NCBI GenBank assembly: GCA_030431635.1
Contig: JAUIIL010000004.1
Location: 186,001 to 250,000 of the forward strand
From: Bacteriovoracia bacterium
GTDB taxonomy: Bacteria > Bdellovibrionota > Bacteriovoracia > Bacteriovoracales > Bacteriovoracaceae
Length of the DNA stretch: 64,000 bases
Direction: 5' to 3'
The notes under the pieces were generated by a model. It was not told the DNA's origin and ran no database searches. It worked only from the letters and a program-made list of their open reading frames with translations. This document shows, in pieces, positions 4,502 through 61,210 of the stretch (position 1 is its first letter; the number at the start of each line of letters is the position of its first letter). Made by a program: the position numbers and the translations under genes.

Positions 4502-6256
4502 GATATCAGGATGGTTTTCAATAACGTTGTCGCAAGAGCGTGGTAGTGGAAAATCTTTATTAATAGCTTCTCTTAAAATCCTCATTCCTACTCCTGAGTG
4601 CTCTGACCCAGGTTGGTGGTAGAGAACAGGCCTATCTTTTTTATTATAGAGTAGCAGGCAAGTGTTTAGGTGGGGAGATTTTCTATGCATGAAACTTGTG
4701 AGCTCATCAGCGGTATCTTCTTCAGAGAAAATAGAGTCCCCTGAATAGACTTGATGAGCTGTTTTCATTAAGAGTTGATTTTTTTGATGCCTACTTGTGA
4801 TACAGGATCTGAGTTTCTTATATTTTTCCTCAAGGAGCGGGTCGTTTTCTATATAATTATATAAATAATAACTAAGAACATGAGAGAGCTCATGGCCCAG
4901 AGATTCTCTTCCATAGGTGTCAAAGTTTCTAACGCTTAAAAGAGACACATTAATCACTGGATTTTGATGAGTGATGCGACCTGTTTTCTTGTCATAAATT
5001 CTTAAAAAGTCGACAACATCTCCAGCAAAGCTAAGGTTGAAATCAGAACAGAAGAGGCGTTCTGATAATTGAAATTGAGGGTCGAGTTGGTTGATGAAAT
5101 AAATTTTCTTATCAATTAAGCTTTGGTTCTCAAAGTTTGCTAAGAAGAGTTTATCTTGAGAAGTGATTCCTCTTATTTGCTCTATTGAAGTCAAGTTTTG
5201 GTTTTTAGGTGAAAAATAGAGCTTGACGTTTTTTAAGGCCCAGCTTTTAAAGGAAGATTTTTTTAACTGAAAAAGTTTTTGAACGATTTCTTTGTCATAT
5301 TCCTCGATTAGATTTTTAAATTTCCCTTGAACCTCTTTTTGCTCGGCCAAAGAGATTTTCAAACGACTCTCATTTAAAATAAAGGGGCGGCATTGGCCCA
5401 AAGTTTTATCCATAAAATTTGAAGAAGTGAGTTTTTTCTTAAATCTTGCTAAAGATCGTTTGAAGTTTAGCTTAGAAAGCTTCGTTCGAATCCATTCTTT
5501 GCATTTGTCTGTCGGACAAGTAAGAGGAGAGTAAAAAGGATTTTCTTTTTTTTCTAAACTGCCTTCTAAAACGATAAAGCGAATGAAAACGTCATTTAAG
5601 TGTTCGTTTTTGAACTTTGGCTCATCAATAAGATGAGAAATACGTTCTAATGAGTCTTCAAGAAAGGGTTTTAAAATAGAATCACTTTTTTCAATCTCTT
5701 TTTTGTATCTTTGAATTTTCTCTTTCAAAAGAGGGAGCAATTCATCAGGAGTCTTAAGACCTTTTGAAAATTGCATGAAGAGAGTTGAAGTCATTTTGGG
5801 GCGGGAAAAAGCAATATACTCTCTAACCACTTCTTTATGCTCAGGAGACTCCACCTTAGAGTTTGGAGTCATCATGAGTTTCTTCTCAAGAGTAGAAGGA
5901 TCTCTTACAAGGGATGTCTCTACATATTGGCCGATAAAGGTATATTCGTAGAGACTTAACTGAGAGTCGTTTAGTTCTGTAACACTGGAGAAATCCTTCT
6001 CAGGTTTAAAGAAGGTTTCAAGCTTGTTAACAATTGCTTTTTTTACTTCAATGGACTCTTTAATGGCGGCTGCAAGTTCATTTGATTTTTCTTGAAAGAC
6101 TTCTTTATCAATATAGTGTTGAATATTCTCTTTTGTTGCCCCCGAGTAGAGAAGCACTTCTGATCGAGCACAGAGTTTTTTTATACATCGGTTTAATTCA
6201 TCGGAGTGAGATGAAAAACTAATAAATAATAAGAAAAAGAGAATTAGATTTCTTAT
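4469..6256 (-). CDS. Putative secreted zinc metallopeptidase (HExxH), possible AUA start
   Basis: The last gene of the riboflavin operon encodes a protein with the zinc-peptidase motif HELSH at about residue 455 in a helix ([13 protein letters not shown]); a downstream acidic stretch ([12 protein letters not shown]) could supply the third ligand. The first ordinary start in frame is a GTG at 6157, but the frame upstream encodes a clear signal peptide ([17 protein letters not shown]) that begins at an ATA codon at 6254-6256. That ATA overlaps the ribH stop exactly where an ATG in an ATGA junction would be and sits behind an AAGGAG Shine-Dalgarno. I therefore annotate from the ATA (595 residues). 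The GTG start would leave a cytoplasmic protein. The substrate is unknown, and the 3' end overlaps a convergent gene by 33 bases. Confidence 0.7.
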
Positions 6257-6714
6257 TCAATTCTCCTTAAAAGGTTGGCCATCTCTATGGCCGTTAAAGC
6301 ACTTTCCCATCCTTTGTTTCCAGCTTTAGTCCCGGCCCTTTCAATGGCCTGTTCAATGGTGTCAGTCGTTAAGACTCCAAAAATTGTTGGGATACCTGTT
6401 GTCATATTCACATCTGCGATGCCTTTTGTCGCTGCATTGGCGACATGATCAAAGTGGGCGGTAGAGCCTCTAATAATGGCACCGAGGCAAATAATGGCAT
6501 CAAACTTTTTTGTTTCAGCAAGTTTTTTGGCAGCAAGAGGGATTTCAAAAGCTCCAGGAACCCAAGTTTCAGTGATTGAACTCTCCTCAATACCATGCCT
6601 GAGCAAACAATCTTTGGCCCCTTCTAGTAGTTTATGAGTAATAAGTTCATTAAAGCGACCTGTGACGATGGCCACGTTTAAGTTTTGAGCTGTTAACATA
6701 CCTTCTAGTTTCAT
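6253..6714 (-). CDS. ribH: 6,7-dimethyl-8-ribityllumazine synthase
   Basis: RibH condenses 5-amino-6-ribitylamino-uracil with 3,4-dihydroxy-2-butanone 4-phosphate to form lumazine, the penultimate riboflavin step. The 153-residue length is normal. Family motifs are present: the N-terminal binding strand ([13 protein letters not shown]), [13 protein letters not shown], the loop [16 protein letters not shown] with its phosphate-binding and catalytic histidine region, and a C-terminal [17 protein letters not shown]. It follows ribBA by 13 bases with an AGAGGAA-type Shine-Dalgarno, and its stop codon overlaps the putative AUA start of the downstream secreted protein. It probably forms an icosahedral or pentameric assembly, as the family does. 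Confidence 0.97.
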
Positions 6715-6727
6715 AATTCCTCTTTTC

Positions 6728-7927
6728 TTATTGCAACGTTAATTCGTTTATTTCGTGATTCATTCTTTTCTTTTTTGTCATCATATAGAAATGATTTTCT
6801 TTATTCGGGATAATAGGACTTGGTACTCTTTCTTTAACTTGAATGCCTAGTTTTGTTAAAGAAGATATTTTACTTGGGTTATTTGTCATAAGTCTTATCT
6901 CTCTTATCCCAAAGAACTTTAGTATTTGAGCACATGAGCTGTAGTCTCTATTATCATCTGGAAGCCCAAGTCTTCTATTGGCATCAACTGTGTCAAAACC
7001 TTGTTGCTGAAGCTTGTAGGCCTTGATTTTATTGATAATACCAATACCTCTGCCTTCTTGAGGGTGGTAGATAATAATCCCACCTTCTTCTTGAATTCTT
7101 TGCATGGCAAGTTCAAGTTGCTGCCCGCAATCGCATCTTTGGGAATGAAAAACATCCCCAGTTAAACACTGAGAGTGAATTCGTACAAGTGGGTCGCTCA
7201 AGTCCTTGCCTTTAGTTAAAACAACATAGTCTTCTCCAGACATTGAATCAACAAAAGTGTGAAGATCAAATTCCCCGTACGTTGTAGGTAATTTAATTGT
7301 TTCATCATGTTTAATGTGAATTTCATTGGCACGACGGTATTCGATTAAGTCTTTAATAGAGATCATTTTAAGCTGATGCTCTTTGGCCATTTGTTTGAGT
7401 TCTTCTACTCGGGCCATACTGCCATCAGGGTTACAGATTTCACAAATAACTCCCACTGGAGCAAGGCCTGCCATGGTGGCAAGATCAACCGCTGCTTCTG
7501 TATGTCCATCTCTTTTTAAAACTCCTCCTTCTTGGGCAATCAGAGGAAAGATATGTCCTGGTCTGACAAAATCTTCAGGAGAGCTTTTTTGATCGGCCAG
7601 TAGTGCAATCGTTCTGGCCCTATCATTTGCTGAAATCCCAGTTGAGATCCCTTTGGCCGCATCAACCGTGACTGTAAAAGCTGTTTCATGTGAAGAGGTA
7701 TTTCTTTGAACCATAGGGGAGAGGTTCAATCTTTGAGCATAACTAAGGCTTAGAGGAGTACAAATCATCCCTCGGCCGATACTGGCCATAAAGTTAACAG
7801 CTTGTGGAGTTATTTTAGAAGCGGCCATAATGAAGTCACCCTCATTTTCTCTATTCTCATCATCAATAACGATAATCATTTTCCCCGCGCGAATATCTTC
7901 TACAGCTTCTTCAATTGTATTTAACAT
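6728..7927 (-). CDS. ribBA: Bifunctional 3,4-DHBP synthase / GTP cyclohydrolase II
   Basis: This 399-residue enzyme supplies both riboflavin precursors. Residues ~1-200 are the RibB domain, which makes 3,4-dihydroxy-2-butanone 4-phosphate from ribulose 5-phosphate ([31 protein letters not shown]). Residues ~205-390 are the RibA domain, which opens GTP (zinc cysteines in [15 protein letters not shown], then [16 protein letters not shown] and [15 protein letters not shown]). All hallmark residues of both domains are present, so both activities are expected. It starts one base after the ribE stop codon, within the same operon. The fusion is common outside enterobacteria. Confidence 0.97.
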
Positions 7928-56027: not shown

Positions 56028-56129
56028 CGCTAAACTAGCTAGTTTGTAAAATTTACTTCGATTACTGATAAGAGTAGGTTTTTATAGGTCTAAATGATAC
56101 AGTGCGAAAAAAGAAAAAAGGATGTGTTT

Positions 56130-56813
56130 ATGCTTAAAAAAATCTCAAATTTTCTGGTTTTACAATTTTTTATCATGAGTTTTTCTTATGGGAGAACTGT
56201 GACAGATTATGAGCAAAACGCTCTTGAAACTTTTAAAAGTCTTAACAAAAACAATGCAACTGTGAAAATTAATGGAGAGGAAACAGATTTTTCTAATATG
56301 CAAAGTTTGGATGATTTATCGGTAGCAACCAAAGATGGGATCAAATTTGAAATTAAGCCTAATAAAAACTATCCCTTATTTCGTTATGAAATAATGACAA
56401 AAGATGGAGAGAACTATTCTCTTGTGGCCAAAAATGGAGAGGGGAATAGTGAAGTTGAAGTAGCCTCAACTATTTTCACTATAGCTTCTATTAATTCATC
56501 TAAGGCCCAAAAAGAGCGAGCGGCTAAAAAGCTTAAAGAAAATATTATTAACTTTGAATCACAGGTAAAGGCTCAAGGTTTTGCTTTTGTTGGAAATCAA
56601 CTAAGTCGTGGTATTGCTCAAGCAGAAGAAGGGACAGTGAAAGTTCCAGGACGTCTGATCTTATGTATTGGAGCTGTAATAGTTGCAATTCTAGTAGTTT
56701 CAGCAGCACTTTTTAAGAAAGATGTTCTCAAAACAGAAGGGCAGAGAGAGTTCCTTGGAGGAGCAGGCTTGATATCTGCTTTTGCTGGATATTATGGATG
56801 TATAGGATTCTAA
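56130..56813 (+). CDS. Exported membrane protein inserted between rimM and trmD, unknown function
   Basis: The ATG at 56130 gives a signal peptide (MLKKISNFLVLQFFIMSFSYG). The 227-residue product has a soluble middle with beta character, then a C-terminal hairpin of two hydrophobic helices (LILCIGAVIVAILVVSAALF, GGAGLISAFAGYYGCIGF). No family is recognised. It interrupts the rimM-trmD pair and is closed off by its own terminator, so it is an insertion in a conserved operon. Confidence 0.7.
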   Translation: MLKKISNFLVLQFFIMSFSYGRTVTDYEQNALETFKSLNKNNATVKINGEETDFSNMQSLDDLSVATKDGIKFEIKPNKNYPLFRYEIMTKDGENYSLVAKNGEGNSEVEVASTIFTIASINSSKAQKERAAKKLKENIINFESQVKAQGFAFVGNQLSRGIAQAEEGTVKVPGRLILCIGAVIVAILVVSAALFKKDVLKTEGQREFLGGAGLISAFAGYYGCIGF

Positions 56814-56838
56814 AAAATTAAGATTTAATTTTAACAGG

Positions 56839-56863
56839 ACGGCTCCAAATTGGAGCCGTTTTT
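56839..56863 (+). terminator. Rho-independent terminator after the 56130-56813 gene
   Basis: ACGGCTCC pairs with GGAGCCGT around a five-base loop and is followed by TTTTT. It breaks the rimM-trmD cluster into separate transcripts. Confidence 0.85.
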
Positions 56864-56962
56864 GTATAGTTTTTTGACACTCAAGTCTTGTAAATTTCCC
56901 CCTGTACCCTCTTTTTGAAGAATCTTTAATGTAGAATAAACTTAAAAATACTGGTTGTTGTT

Positions 56963-58279
56963 TTGAAGAAAAGACTTTTTAATTTTTTAGTTTTGTTTGT
57001 TCTGAGCTTTACTCAAAGCTTATACCCTTGTTCTTATTTATTTAGAAACTCTCGATTAACTGTCGACATGGATAAGATTGATAAGGCATCTCAATTTTAT
57101 TTGGATTTTTTAGAGAAAAATAAAAAGCTTGAACTAAGTTCAGTAACTACTTTTGAAGGTGGAATAGGAGTAATTGAAGCCATTTTCCGTCACTTTAATC
57201 ATGATGACAGTATTAATATAAAAGAAACTCTTATACAAAAGGGGTACACAAGTAGAAAGATTCATAGACTTGTTAATAAATCTTTTCAAACACCTCAGCT
57301 CTATCAAAACCCAAAAGAGTTTATGAACAAAAACTCTGTATTAGAACTTTACCGTTTTATCTATAAGCAAAATTTAAGACATCGTTCCAATACGAAAAGA
57401 GTTTTAAATAAACTAGAGAAGAAACTAAAAAACTTAGTTTCCATAGATGCAAAACTTGATGCCTATATCGAAAAAGTAGCTCTTCAAAATAATCTAAAGG
57501 ATGGTTTAGAGAAATTAGGTTTTATTCAACCAGGCTCTTTTAAACCTGATAAAGTTCTTAAAACTTCCCACAATGGTCGTTCTTTAACTATTACTAGTAT
57601 TGAAAATGCGTTAATTTTATTTCTTTATTTTAAGACGCCTTTTTTGGAATACTTTATTCCAGGAATACATCCTCTTAATATTTATGACTTTTCTAATATG
57701 GGAAAAAAGGCCCTAGAATATTCAAGAAAATATGGAAAAGAGAAAGCCAAAGAAATACTGAAAGAAGAATTTCCTGGCCTTATAAAAATAGGTCTATTCG
57801 TTGATATTATAATTACTGCTTATCTATTCTCAATGTCAGCTTTAAGTTTGTATTATCTTTATGGCATGTCTGAGGATTTTGAATTCTTCTATTTCTTCTA
57901 TATGGCAGAAAATAATAATAGCTGTAGTGAAAACATGCAAGTTTCGGTTAAAGCAAGTATAGCTTCATATGAACTGAGAGGTAAGGAGATAGATATTACG
58001 ATACCAGAGGGAGCTGAGAATATAAAAGAGATTATTGATAGGGTTTATAGTACTCCATGTCGATTTATGGATCAAAGAGATGAAAAGGACAAAAAACTTT
58101 CTTATGAAGGTAAAAGTGTTCAAGTTCTAAGAGCTGAGCAGGTTGCTATTTGGAAAAAAGCATACGAAGACTATGGCCTTGACATATACTCTCAAAACAA
58201 AGAAGGAATTAGTTACTACAATAGGTTTCGAGAAAACTTAGAGAAAAGACCGGGAGAAGATTTTTTATTTGACTTTTAG
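56963..58279 (+). CDS. Putative secreted/membrane protein between rimM and trmD
   Basis: The 438-residue product begins at a TTG, the only start that leaves the signal peptide (MKKRLFNFLVLFVLSFTQSLYPC) intact; a clear Shine-Dalgarno is absent. The body is basic and helical, and there is one hydrophobic helix at ~275-300 (IGLFVDIIITAYLFSMSALSLYYLYG). Acidic and cysteine-containing segments follow (NNNSCSENMQ, YSTPCRFMDQ). No motif is recognised. It lies between the terminator and trmD with an 18-base gap to trmD and may be translated with it. Confidence 0.6.
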   Translation: MKKRLFNFLVLFVLSFTQSLYPCSYLFRNSRLTVDMDKIDKASQFYLDFLEKNKKLELSSVTTFEGGIGVIEAIFRHFNHDDSINIKETLIQKGYTSRKIHRLVNKSFQTPQLYQNPKEFMNKNSVLELYRFIYKQNLRHRSNTKRVLNKLEKKLKNLVSIDAKLDAYIEKVALQNNLKDGLEKLGFIQPGSFKPDKVLKTSHNGRSLTITSIENALILFLYFKTPFLEYFIPGIHPLNIYDFSNMGKKALEYSRKYGKEKAKEILKEEFPGLIKIGLFVDIIITAYLFSMSALSLYYLYGMSEDFEFFYFFYMAENNNSCSENMQVSVKASIASYELRGKEIDITIPEGAENIKEIIDRVYSTPCRFMDQRDEKDKKLSYEGKSVQVLRAEQVAIWKKAYEDYGLDIYSQNKEGISYYNRFRENLEKRPGEDFLFDF

Positions 58280-58297: not shown

Positions 58298-59047
58298 ATG
58301 AACATGCTAAAACGCTTACATATCATCACATTATTTCCTCAATACTTTACCTCCTTTCTGGATGTAGGGGTTATTGGAAGTGCGCTAAGAAATGAAAGAT
58401 CCCCAGAAGGGTATCAATTTGAAGTTCACTTGGTTGATCTTAAAGATTACTCAGAGAAAAATTTTAAAGGTGTTGATGAGTCCCCTTACGGTGGAGGAGC
58501 AGGAATGGTAATGAGGGCCGATGTGCTTAAGCGCTCACTCATTGAAGGAGTCTTTAATAAAGGAAAGTATCAAAATCTTAAGAAAGAGCTGCATATTGTT
58601 TGTCCAGCTCCTCGTGGGAGAACATGGGATAATAGCTATGCCAAAGAGTTTGCGGCCCACTATCTTGATTTTGAGACTCCTAAAGATGTGGTTTTCATTT
58701 GTGGGCGCTATGAAGGAATAGATGAGCGTTTTCTTGAAAATTATGTCGATGAATTCATCTCTCTGGGGAATTTTATTTTAACTGGAGGGGAGTTAGCAGT
58801 CATGACGATTCTTGATAGTGCTCTTCGCTTCGTTCCTGGTGTGTTAGGAAACAAACTCTCCATTATAGATGAGTCCTTTGCCAGTAATAAAATTGAATAT
58901 CCTCTCTACACCCGTCCGCGAGAGTTTGAAGGCAAGCTTCCTCCAGAAGAGCTCTTAAGTGGCCATCATCAAAAAATTGAGAAGTTTAAAAGTCATGCTA
59001 GCCAAGAGATGACTCAGAAGTTTCGCCCGGATTTGTTGAAACGATAA
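58298..59047 (+). CDS. trmD: tRNA (guanine-37-N1)-methyltransferase
   Basis: TrmD methylates G37 next to the anticodon and keeps the reading frame. The 249-residue protein has the SPOUT trefoil-knot core with VFICGRYEGIDERFLENYVDEF (~140-160) and GNFILTGGELAVMTILDSALRFVPGVLGN, plus the C-terminal RPxxFEGxxPPEELLSGHHQKI region. The start at 58298 has AGGAGGAG 13 bases upstream; an ATG two codons later is also possible. Confidence 0.97.
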   Translation: MNMLKRLHIITLFPQYFTSFLDVGVIGSALRNERSPEGYQFEVHLVDLKDYSEKNFKGVDESPYGGGAGMVMRADVLKRSLIEGVFNKGKYQNLKKELHIVCPAPRGRTWDNSYAKEFAAHYLDFETPKDVVFICGRYEGIDERFLENYVDEFISLGNFILTGGELAVMTILDSALRFVPGVLGNKLSIIDESFASNKIEYPLYTRPREFEGKLPPEELLSGHHQKIEKFKSHASQEMTQKFRPDLLKR

Positions 59048-59135
59048 GTTTCTGCAACGCTATGCAGGTGTAAAAAATTCATTTTTGTAAGCAAAATTGC
59101 TCCGTTTTGTATACACAAATCTGTTTGATTGAGAA

Positions 59136-59168
59136 GTTCTCCGTTATCTATAGACCACAACGGAGAAC
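59136..59168 (+). promoter_or_regulatory. Hairpin hiding the Shine-Dalgarno of the TIGR02147 gene
   Basis: GTTCTCCGTT (59136-59145) and AACGGAGAAC (59159-59168) form a perfect 10-base inverted repeat around a 13-base loop. The GGAG in the right arm is the Shine-Dalgarno of the ATG at 59174. In RNA the hairpin would mask ribosome binding, so translation may be controlled. As DNA it could equally be an operator. Confidence 0.6.
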
Positions 59169-59173
59169 AGCTT

Positions 59174-60010
59174 ATGTTAAGCATCTACAACTATATCAAC
59201 GCAAACGAATACCTTAGCGATAAATGGAAAGAGAAGCGTTTTCTTAATCCTCATTTTTCTTTAAGGGCTTGGGCCGGACAGCTAGATATTAATAACCATA
59301 CTTCTCTTCATCAGATGCTCCAAGGTAAGCGTGGCGTCCCCAAAAAATATATCTTTAACTTTGCTAAGAGTCTCAGTCTTGATGTGAAAGAAACTCTCTA
59401 CTTTGAGGCCATGGTTGATCTTTCACGTTCAAAAAGTCTTGAAGAAAAAGAGGTTTATACTCTCAGACTTAAGGAGCTTTCTCCAAAACCCAAGCTACAA
59501 ATGAAAGAGATAGAAATCTACAGGCTTATTAAGAGCCCTCTACATACGATTATTTTGGAACTGAGTTCTTTGAAGGGGTTTAAAAGTGATCCCGTATGGA
59601 TCAAGAAGGCTTTAAGGATTTCGAGTTCAGTTGTTGAAATTAAGGAAGTCATTGAGAGATTAGAAAGTTTAGGACTTATTACTTTTAAAGGGGAGAGTTT
59701 TAAGAAGTCGCAGCAACATCTCTACAGTAGGCAAGATATAAGTGATAAAGGCTTACAAGAATACCATAAAAAAGTTTGCACAATGGCCGCAGAACAAATT
59801 TCAGAACAAGATGTTAATGAACGTGAGTACAATGCTTACGCTCTTAATATAGAACGTCAGAAGATCCCTAAGGCAAAAGAGCTTATTCGTAAGTTCATGG
59901 ATGAATTTGCGACTGAGGTTGAGGCCCAGGATGAACAGGGAGAAGAGACGTATCAGTTAAATATTCAATTTTTTTCAATCACAAACGTGAATAAAGGAGT
60001 CATACAATGA
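59174..60010 (+). CDS. TIGR02147-family protein (putative regulator)
   Basis: This is the family found mainly in Bdellovibrio-like and Fibrobacter genomes. The 278-residue protein starts at ATG 59174 (MLSIYNYINANEYLSDKWKEKR). The characteristic features are FSLRAWAGQLDINNHTSLHQML near residue 30, which looks like a helix-turn-helix, KKYIFNFAKSLSLDVKETLYFEAMV, and a second helical half with KALRISSSVVEIKEVIERLESLGLI, a winged-helix-like segment. It is probably a transcription factor, though its function is unproven. Its stop overlaps the next gene in an ATGA. Its own translation start lies in a hairpin. Confidence 0.85.
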   Translation: MLSIYNYINANEYLSDKWKEKRFLNPHFSLRAWAGQLDINNHTSLHQMLQGKRGVPKKYIFNFAKSLSLDVKETLYFEAMVDLSRSKSLEEKEVYTLRLKELSPKPKLQMKEIEIYRLIKSPLHTIILELSSLKGFKSDPVWIKKALRISSSVVEIKEVIERLESLGLITFKGESFKKSQQHLYSRQDISDKGLQEYHKKVCTMAAEQISEQDVNEREYNAYALNIERQKIPKAKELIRKFMDEFATEVEAQDEQGEETYQLNIQFFSITNVNKGVIQ

Positions 60011-61134
60011 AGAGCATTTACTTGATCATTATTTTAGGTTTACTTAATTTCTCTTACGCACAAGAGTTTGCCAGTGGAGGTGGTAATGGAGGGGATATCC
60101 TTGAATCTGAAAAAGTTTTGATTAAAAGAGATATTCAAATGAAACTTTCTGATATTGCTAGTTTTTTTCAAAATTATCCAGAGTACCAAAAAGATTTTAA
60201 CAATTTTAACTTTAAAAAGGCTTTGGAATTAATTAAGGAGAATAGAATTCAAATTGATATTGTAGAAGAAAAACCTAAGGATAAATATGGAAGAGATAGA
60301 AGTGCAGTTAACTATCCTAATGAAAAACGTATTGAGTATTATTATTATGATTTGAAGAAGGCAATTGATGAGGATAACAAAGCTCTTTATGTTTTACACT
60401 TCCATGAACTTGGTGGACTTGTTGGAGTAGAAGAAGCTGACCCGGACAATGAGTTTCTTATTGATGATTATTCAGAGTCCAGCAAATTAGCAAGATACTT
60501 GGGACAAGAGGTTCGATATGTTTTAAGGCCACTTGAGTATGGAAATATTGAGTTTAATACTTCAGACATTTGTTTAACTTTCAAAAGTGGAGTTCTTTTT
60601 ACAAGCATTTATTATAGAGTTTATTGTAAAGATCAAACTTTTATAGGAGCTAGTAATATGACATTGATTTTGCCATATGATTGGGGAAATTATGCTAGAA
60701 AGAACTTGAATAAAAAAATGAAAGATAAAGGATATGAATTTTGGGGATTCATATCTGGTGATGCCAAGAAAAGAACTATTAGAGAAAATCCTTATCTTAT
60801 TTTTACCAAAGACAAAAGTTTAAAGCGTAAATTTTGTTCTTTGTCATACAACAATAAACGTCATACAGGTAGAACTGAAAAACTTGTATATAATTTTATT
60901 TTGTCTTGTGATGGAGAAGCCAAACTATATGAGGCAATTACTTTTGAAGAAGCGAGTCATTTACTAAATATTCAGGGTTATAAGGAAAGTTTAAGAATAC
61001 AAACAAAAGGAAAAGTGAGTGGAGAAATCATTTATTTAAAAACTCCTGGTAATGAGTTTTTGCTCGGGCCTCAGGGCAACTCAACACCTTTTTTTGTTCC
61101 AGAGTGGATCTCAATATTTGAAAGACAAGAATGA
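60007..61134 (+). CDS. Secreted protein coupled to TIGR02147 gene, SGGGNGGD start
   Basis: The 375-residue product has a signal peptide (MKSIYLIIILGLLNFSYA) and a mature N-terminus FASGGGNGGD, a motif that I associate with secreted Bdellovibrionota proteins. Near residue 120 is LHFHELGGLVGVEEADPDNEF, a His/Glu run resembling a metal site (HFHE). The C-terminal half is basic with several beta-like blocks. No enzyme can be named. The ATGA overlap with the TIGR02147 gene makes the two a translationally coupled unit, so the regulator probably controls it or senses its state. Confidence 0.75.
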   Translation: MKSIYLIIILGLLNFSYAQEFASGGGNGGDILESEKVLIKRDIQMKLSDIASFFQNYPEYQKDFNNFNFKKALELIKENRIQIDIVEEKPKDKYGRDRSAVNYPNEKRIEYYYYDLKKAIDEDNKALYVLHFHELGGLVGVEEADPDNEFLIDDYSESSKLARYLGQEVRYVLRPLEYGNIEFNTSDICLTFKSGVLFTSIYYRVYCKDQTFIGASNMTLILPYDWGNYARKNLNKKMKDKGYEFWGFISGDAKKRTIRENPYLIFTKDKSLKRKFCSLSYNNKRHTGRTEKLVYNFILSCDGEAKLYEAITFEEASHLLNIQGYKESLRIQTKGKVSGEIIYLKTPGNEFLLGPQGNSTPFFVPEWISIFERQE

Positions 61135-61143
61135 TTTTGATTA

Positions 61144-61175
61144 AGAGGGTTCCCTAAAAGAGAACCCTCTTCTCC
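61144..61175 (+). terminator. Weak terminator after the 60007-61134 gene
   Basis: AGAGGGTTC (61144-61152) pairs with GAACCCTCT (61162-61170); the tract behind it (TCTCC) is not a proper T-run, so termination may be partial. Confidence 0.55.
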
Positions 61176-61210
61176 TTGAAACTCCTTTTAATCCATAGTA
61201 ATTAACTAGA

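Follow-up and report, generated by a model that had tools for sequence, protein, structure and literature searches.

TIGR02147 regulator genes paired with genes for tagged exported proteins in the Bdellovibrionota

Which genes do the regulators of the TIGR02147/DUF4423 family serve, and how are they themselves controlled? The family is without a described function, and its NCBIfam model, 'Fsuc_second', was presumably named after Fibrobacter. The question is raised by a locus in a 64,000-nucleotide stretch of Bacteriovoracia DNA (the window), where a two-gene cassette (59048-61210, + strand) stands between trmD (58298-59047) and a gene for a SAM-dependent RNA methyltransferase (PF09936; 61211-61789). 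A preliminary description of this locus proposed that a regulator and a secreted protein form an undescribed regulator-effector unit, and that an inverted repeat masking the Shine-Dalgarno sequence of the regulator gene serves as one RNA switch or operator for both. The main finding presented here is more general: a pairing of TIGR02147 regulators with tagged exported proteins across a mostly predatory phylum, which that description had missed.

As far as could be checked, this pairing is undescribed in the literature. A search that did not extend to most subscription papers found no mention of TIGR02147 and no paper describing its pairing with tagged export. The one mention of DUF4423 was a table row for Bd3700, which is listed with the proteins of Bdellovibrio bacteriovorus that increase while it grows in prey (PMC12546842).

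The cassette between trmD and a methyltransferase gene

The first gene of the cassette (59174-60010, + strand) encodes a regulator of 278 amino acids that belongs to the TIGR02147/DUF4423 family. Its full-length match to TIGR02147 (E=2.9e-39, 135.2 bits, model residues 1-270) lies far above the curated cut-off of 50 bits, as does its match to PF14394 (DUF4423; E=1.2e-36, 126 bits) above the cut-off of 30. The coding start is ATG 59174, the point at which the TIGR02147 model begins, and it replaces the earlier placement of the start of the unit near 59130. In a fold search with an AlphaFold2 model (pLDDT 86), residues 7-91 matched the helix-turn-helix (HTH) domains of HigA/GraA antitoxins (Z 8.0-9.1), and residues 109-186, inside DUF4423, were winged-helix-like, with matches to ArsR/HxlR folds (Z 7.5-8.4). 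On the strength of these matches, whose Z values are middling, a DNA-binding role of the regulator is likely. No TPR-type chain was among the fold matches listed for the model, which does not exclude one.

The second gene (60007-61134, + strand) overlaps the first by ATGA (60007-60010), as had been noted before, and translation of regulator and partner is likely to be coupled through this overlap. The partner is a protein of 375 amino acids with a signal-peptide-like start (residues 1-18; signal peptides were called by a hydrophobicity rule only), behind which stands the SGGGNGGD motif (residues 23-30; 60073-60096, + strand) that the preliminary description had pointed out and that belongs to a family of tags seen in most partners. 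Pfam, NCBIfam and PADLOC held no match to the partner, and searches of PADLOC, Rfam and PHROGs gave nothing useful for the unit. A zincin-like domain is predicted at about residues 30-165, which matched AsaP1 (Z 8.3), selecase (7.7) and deuterolysin (7.3); this N-terminal part is modelled with moderate confidence, the mean pLDDT of the whole model being 50, and the C-terminal half (residues 167-375) is without usable structure. The motif HFHELGG (residues 131-137; 60397-60417, + strand), for which a metal site had been suggested, supplies the HE of a degenerate zincin-like helix. This HE is conserved in the relatives of the window partner (group A4), where the motif is of HExLG or HExLR type, and is invariant in a class of long partners (A6); the profiles of A4 and A6 match at the HE spot (94%). 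The predicted domain is zincin-like in fold, but HELGG stands in place of the zinc-binding HExxH motif and lacks its second histidine, which makes both the site and any peptidase activity doubtful. At another locus (L113), a second TIGR02147 gene (6355-7150) lies between genes with HE-type zincin motifs, HEVIHHLGFHHD downstream and HELIH upstream, which differ from the degenerate HELGG found in the window partner.

In all 16 relatives in which trmD and the PF09936 gene could both be located, the two are separated by only 2-164 nt, and they stand ahead of rplS where the fetched stretch includes it, whereas about 2.16 kb separates them in the window. The GC content is 0.31 in the partner gene, 0.37 in the regulator gene and 0.41 in the flanking housekeeping genes, and the closest homologue of the partner (L010, 37% identity) is located elsewhere, likewise paired with a TIGR02147 gene, albeit a distant one. 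Given this adjacency in relatives, the low GC content of the partner gene and the location of L010, the most plausible reading of the cassette is that of a movable unit; a search of the flanks of the insertion turned up no direct repeat of more than 7 bp. Downstream of the partner gene, a hairpin with a stem of 10 (61143-61171, + strand) is a possible transcript end; it has no clear T run, and a terminator search scored no terminator-like site there. The rimM-trmD interval of the window (56094-58279) contains two more genes (239 and 438 amino acids) without clear family match, both with signal-like N-termini, so that the ribosomal-protein operon seems to have acquired exported-protein genes more than once.

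Pairing with tagged exported proteins across the phylum

A whole-genome profile search of the window genome found 13 TIGR02147 genes above the cut-off, together with two matches that were weak or partial. Within 60 nt downstream, all 13 have a gene for a protein with a signal-peptide-like N-terminus, and every one of these partners carries a Gly/Asn motif (GNGG, GNGA or GGGG) within about its first 60 residues. TIGR02147 is present in 224 of the 242 phylum genomes searched (>90%), often with about ten genes per genome. An exported protein or lipoprotein is encoded within 60 nt downstream of 87 of the 110 genes with enough downstream sequence, a share that cannot be taken as representative of the phylum, since these genes were drawn mainly from the best-scoring matches. 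The genes overlap in 73 of the 87 pairs, 60 of which show the same -4 overlap as the window. A genome-collection search with the alignment returned loci from Bdellovibrionota only, with named matches in Bacteriovoracaceae, Halobacteriovoraceae and Bdellovibrionaceae. The pairing of TIGR02147 with a tagged exported protein is real and general. Absence of such pairs elsewhere, which the preliminary description had named as fatal to its proposal, was not what these loci showed, and the idea of an undescribed regulator-effector unit is strongly supported because the two families pair across the phylum. The window unit shares three of the features by which we define the cassette, namely a downstream exported partner, the -4 overlap and a GN-type tag behind the signal sequence; autoregulation through upstream repeats is a further, putative one.

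Several apparent exceptions have the pair in another order, being divergent (L028) or having the partner upstream (L118), and at L141, L143 and L155 an upstream exported gene of VGGG- or KVGT-type overlaps the regulator gene. At L012 (G000:C1:334556-335365), a TIGR02147 gene with one in-frame TAA lies beside an intact tagged partner gene; this partner may represent a natural case of a lost regulator.

Most partners carry a tag of GNGG, GGVDVGN, GTxTGNP, EIGN or IGGG type behind the signal peptide. Among the 87 partners, a strict GN[GP] motif occurs in 57 and a broad motif in 72. Of 219 background exported ORFs, no more than 8 show such a motif, and several of these are partners under another start codon or lie beside a TIGR02147 gene. 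The window genome has 37 GNGG-coding sites: all eight that are N-terminal, behind a signal sequence, directly follow TIGR02147 (the eighth on C17), and the remaining sites are internal to other proteins or outside genes. All ten matches to a GGVDVGN pattern in 15 genomes lie 56-82 nt past the end of a TIGR02147 match, and the reversed pattern, used as a control, had no match in the same 15 genomes. Both N-terminal GTxTGNP matches in seven genomes follow TIGR02147, the other two being an internal match and a non-gene.

The partners are whole proteins of up to about 750 amino acids. They include long soluble proteins that carry GNGGD and, in LHE context, an invariant HE (A6), the group of the window partner, with HE (A4), short proteins in which GGVDVGN is accompanied by two invariant cysteines (A8), lipoproteins that combine GTxTGNP with conserved cysteines (A7), and further, smaller groups. 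A PDB profile search with the long class found nothing.

The type of tag follows the regulator. On a tree of the 87 regulators, tag type needs 8 changes versus a shuffled mean of 41, and a single branch separates each of the short, lipoprotein and IGGG-type classes from the rest. More than one tag can occur in a genome, each belonging to its own regulator clade, as in G169 (TGNP at L085, VDVGN at L127) and G027 (GNGG at L030, EIGN at L093). Within the GNGG class, the family of the partner body is random over the tree (9 changes versus 8.8 shuffled), and additional domains occur in single members, for instance an FGE-sulfatase domain in L025 and ankyrin repeats in L008. Part of this spread reflects divergence rather than exchange, since the two larger GNGG groups have a distant zincin-like HE helix in common. 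Tag and body change together between classes, and hence the two can be told apart only inside the GNGG class. Because the tag stands only beside TIGR02147 in the genomes tested and its type follows the regulator clade, it belongs, as judged by sequence comparison, to the relation between regulator and partner; chromosomal nearness by itself could keep tag and regulator together.

Upstream repeats as candidate operators

The perfect 10-base inverted repeat that had been reported over the Shine-Dalgarno sequence is exact. Its arms (59136-59145 and 59159-59168, + strand; GTTCTCCGTT-N13-AACGGAGAAC) have their centres 23 bp apart, and the right arm holds GGAG (59162-59165), 8 nt upstream of ATG 59174. 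A perfect arm of at least 10 arises in 0.4% of dinucleotide shuffles of this 126-bp intergenic region (p=0.004). The RNA from 59120 to 59200 folds with z=-4.4 into 22 pairs that extend over the AUG, the outer stem containing G-U pairs, and none of 200 shuffles folds equally well. A hairpin of this kind would hide Shine-Dalgarno and start codon, and one RNA element would govern both coupled genes; a read-through transcript from trmD would carry both arms. We nevertheless hold such an RNA switch to be unlikely. The mean folding z over 105 TIGR02147 start regions is -0.3, so that concealment of the Shine-Dalgarno is not general in the family, and an RNA hairpin is rejected as the family-wide mechanism. 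A structure conserved across related loci, which would mark a riboswitch or RNA thermometer, was found neither at these 105 starts nor by a match in Rfam, there is no orthologous locus for covariation, and the distance between the arm centres is the same two-turn spacing as in the putative operators. The inverted repeat itself did not recur, as a genome-wide search with GTTCTCC-N15..23-GGAGAAC matched the window copy alone. Several other strong folds are hairpins that leave the Shine-Dalgarno free, or hairpins near starts in the g24 group (L097, L104, L106 and L107), in which a tight GC-rich stem is followed by a T run and which look like terminators of the upstream gene.

Upstream of the inverted repeat lies a direct repeat that the preliminary description had overlooked, a putative operator with a 22-bp period (59083-59118, + strand; TTTTGTAAGCAAAA at 59083-59096 and TTTTGTATACACAA at 59105-59118) in which 11 of 14 positions are identical (shuffle p=0.0065). 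We favour a reading of both repeats as operators over an RNA hairpin, which is still conceivable at the window locus alone. Of the two modes of control originally offered, the RNA switch lacks support as a common mechanism, and the operator gains from operator-like repeats in relatives.

Significant upstream inverted repeats occur in 15 of 105 regions versus 3.4 expected, although some are terminators, and direct repeats with a 22-23 bp period precede 11 TIGR02147 genes versus about 1.3 expected (for example L027, with TGATTTCAAAAA twice, L003 and L114). Such repeats are found in a minority of regions, and their type differs between clades. In the lipoprotein clade, the palindrome GTATTC-N5-GAATAC recurs in different families (spacer 4-6 overall), and when the genomes of six relatives were searched whole, all six N5-spaced sites were at a TIGR02147 locus. 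In G096 and G233, a second site adjoins a beta-propeller (PF09826) lipoprotein gene, which points to a small regulon in this clade, made up of the regulator, a small lipoprotein and a propeller lipoprotein. Second sites beside large PF09826 beta-propeller lipoprotein genes are seen in L184 (1501-3016) and L197 (1-1520). A paralogue in the window genome (L017) has a perfect 13-bp palindrome, CATAGTGTAGACA-agc-TGTCTACACTATG, directly before its - strand TIGR02147 start (near 6133-6170 of the locus), which makes it an ideal candidate operator.

A proposed role for the cassette and its likeness to known systems

We consider it fairly probable that the cassette is a self-contained, horizontally moving unit in which an autoregulated HTH regulator is joined to a dedicated, tagged exported product. 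The regulator, with its HigA-like HTH and winged-helix-like DUF4423 domain, would be an autoregulatory DNA-binding protein that most likely binds the putative repeated half-sites of the promoter region that precedes its gene, and so sets the levels of both proteins jointly, with the ATGA overlap coupling their translation. The partner would leave the cytoplasm as a soluble protein or, in other clades, as a predicted lipoprotein, and Sec is the probable route. The regulator or a matched factor may recognise the tag, for example in feedback on partner export. A bolder proposal, made tentatively since we judge it somewhat unlikely, is that the regulator reads the tag of its own unexported partner in the cytoplasm; the cassette would then be an export sensor, in which the regulator, while bound to the tag, would repress or activate the operon until export has taken place. 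If this were true, each regulator clade would recognise a private code in its type of tag, and a dozen units could operate in parallel in one genome.

The tag could instead serve sorting or anchoring in the envelope, recognised by an export or localisation apparatus and kept by adjacency, the regulator being merely a linked controller. We take this to be possible, if doubtful: the tag occupies the position of lipoprotein and secreted-protein sorting signals, and the parts downstream of it vary in GNGG-class cassettes, but in the genomes tested no exported protein lacking TIGR02147 was seen to carry it, and a single genome holds different tags, each with its own regulator clade. Peptide signalling, in which the regulator would bind a tag region that had been released from the exported protein and taken back into the cell, is very improbable. 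It would account by analogy for the adjacent genes, the HTH type of the regulator and the short conserved motif near the mature N-terminus of the product; the partners, however, are whole proteins with conserved domains and cysteines, the cassette has no importer or protease, and the matches listed for the regulator model contain no TPR-like peptide-binding domain, which is not proof of its absence. That the pair is toxin-antitoxin-like, with an exported toxic partner, appears very improbable as well, even though the best HTH matches are HigA/GraA antitoxins, the genes overlap and the unit has an insertion-like mobility. Against it stand the predicted export of a partner that matches no toxin family (nor anything in PADLOC), a large second regulator domain that HigA lacks, and the survival of an intact partner gene beside the broken regulator gene at C1:334556, with its internal TAA.

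The preferred reading, of an autoregulated regulator with its own tagged product, bears on more than one locus. The pairing gives each orphan TIGR02147/DUF4423 regulator a candidate target and suggests a route of control for many orphan envelope and secreted proteins; it also provides a simple sequence rule for the prediction of exported and lipoprotein effectors, and the upstream repeats offer testable operator sites. It raises the puzzle of why a cytoplasmic regulator should go with a tag that sits on an exported protein.

Among known systems, the HigA/GraA antitoxins of the XRE HTH type resemble the window regulator in their N-terminal HTH fold, putative autoregulation through repeats and an overlapping neighbour gene. 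They differ in that the window unit has an extra DUF4423 domain, and its partner, which follows the regulator, has a signal-peptide-like start and matches no RelE-like RNase of the HigBA kind. In RRNPP pairs of the PlcR-PapR and Rgg-SHP type, an HTH regulator stands beside a product that is exported and contains a short conserved motif, and the window unit shares this arrangement; its partner, however, is a full protein (a lipoprotein in some cassettes), its second regulator domain aligns to winged-helix folds with no TPR seen, and overlap and gene order differ. Finally, the zincin metallopeptidases carry HExxH where the window partner has HELGG, and other partner classes are without this motif, but over residues 30-165 the partner resembles AsaP1, selecase and deuterolysin in its predicted fold (Z 7.3-8.3) and in the helix that bears the HE.
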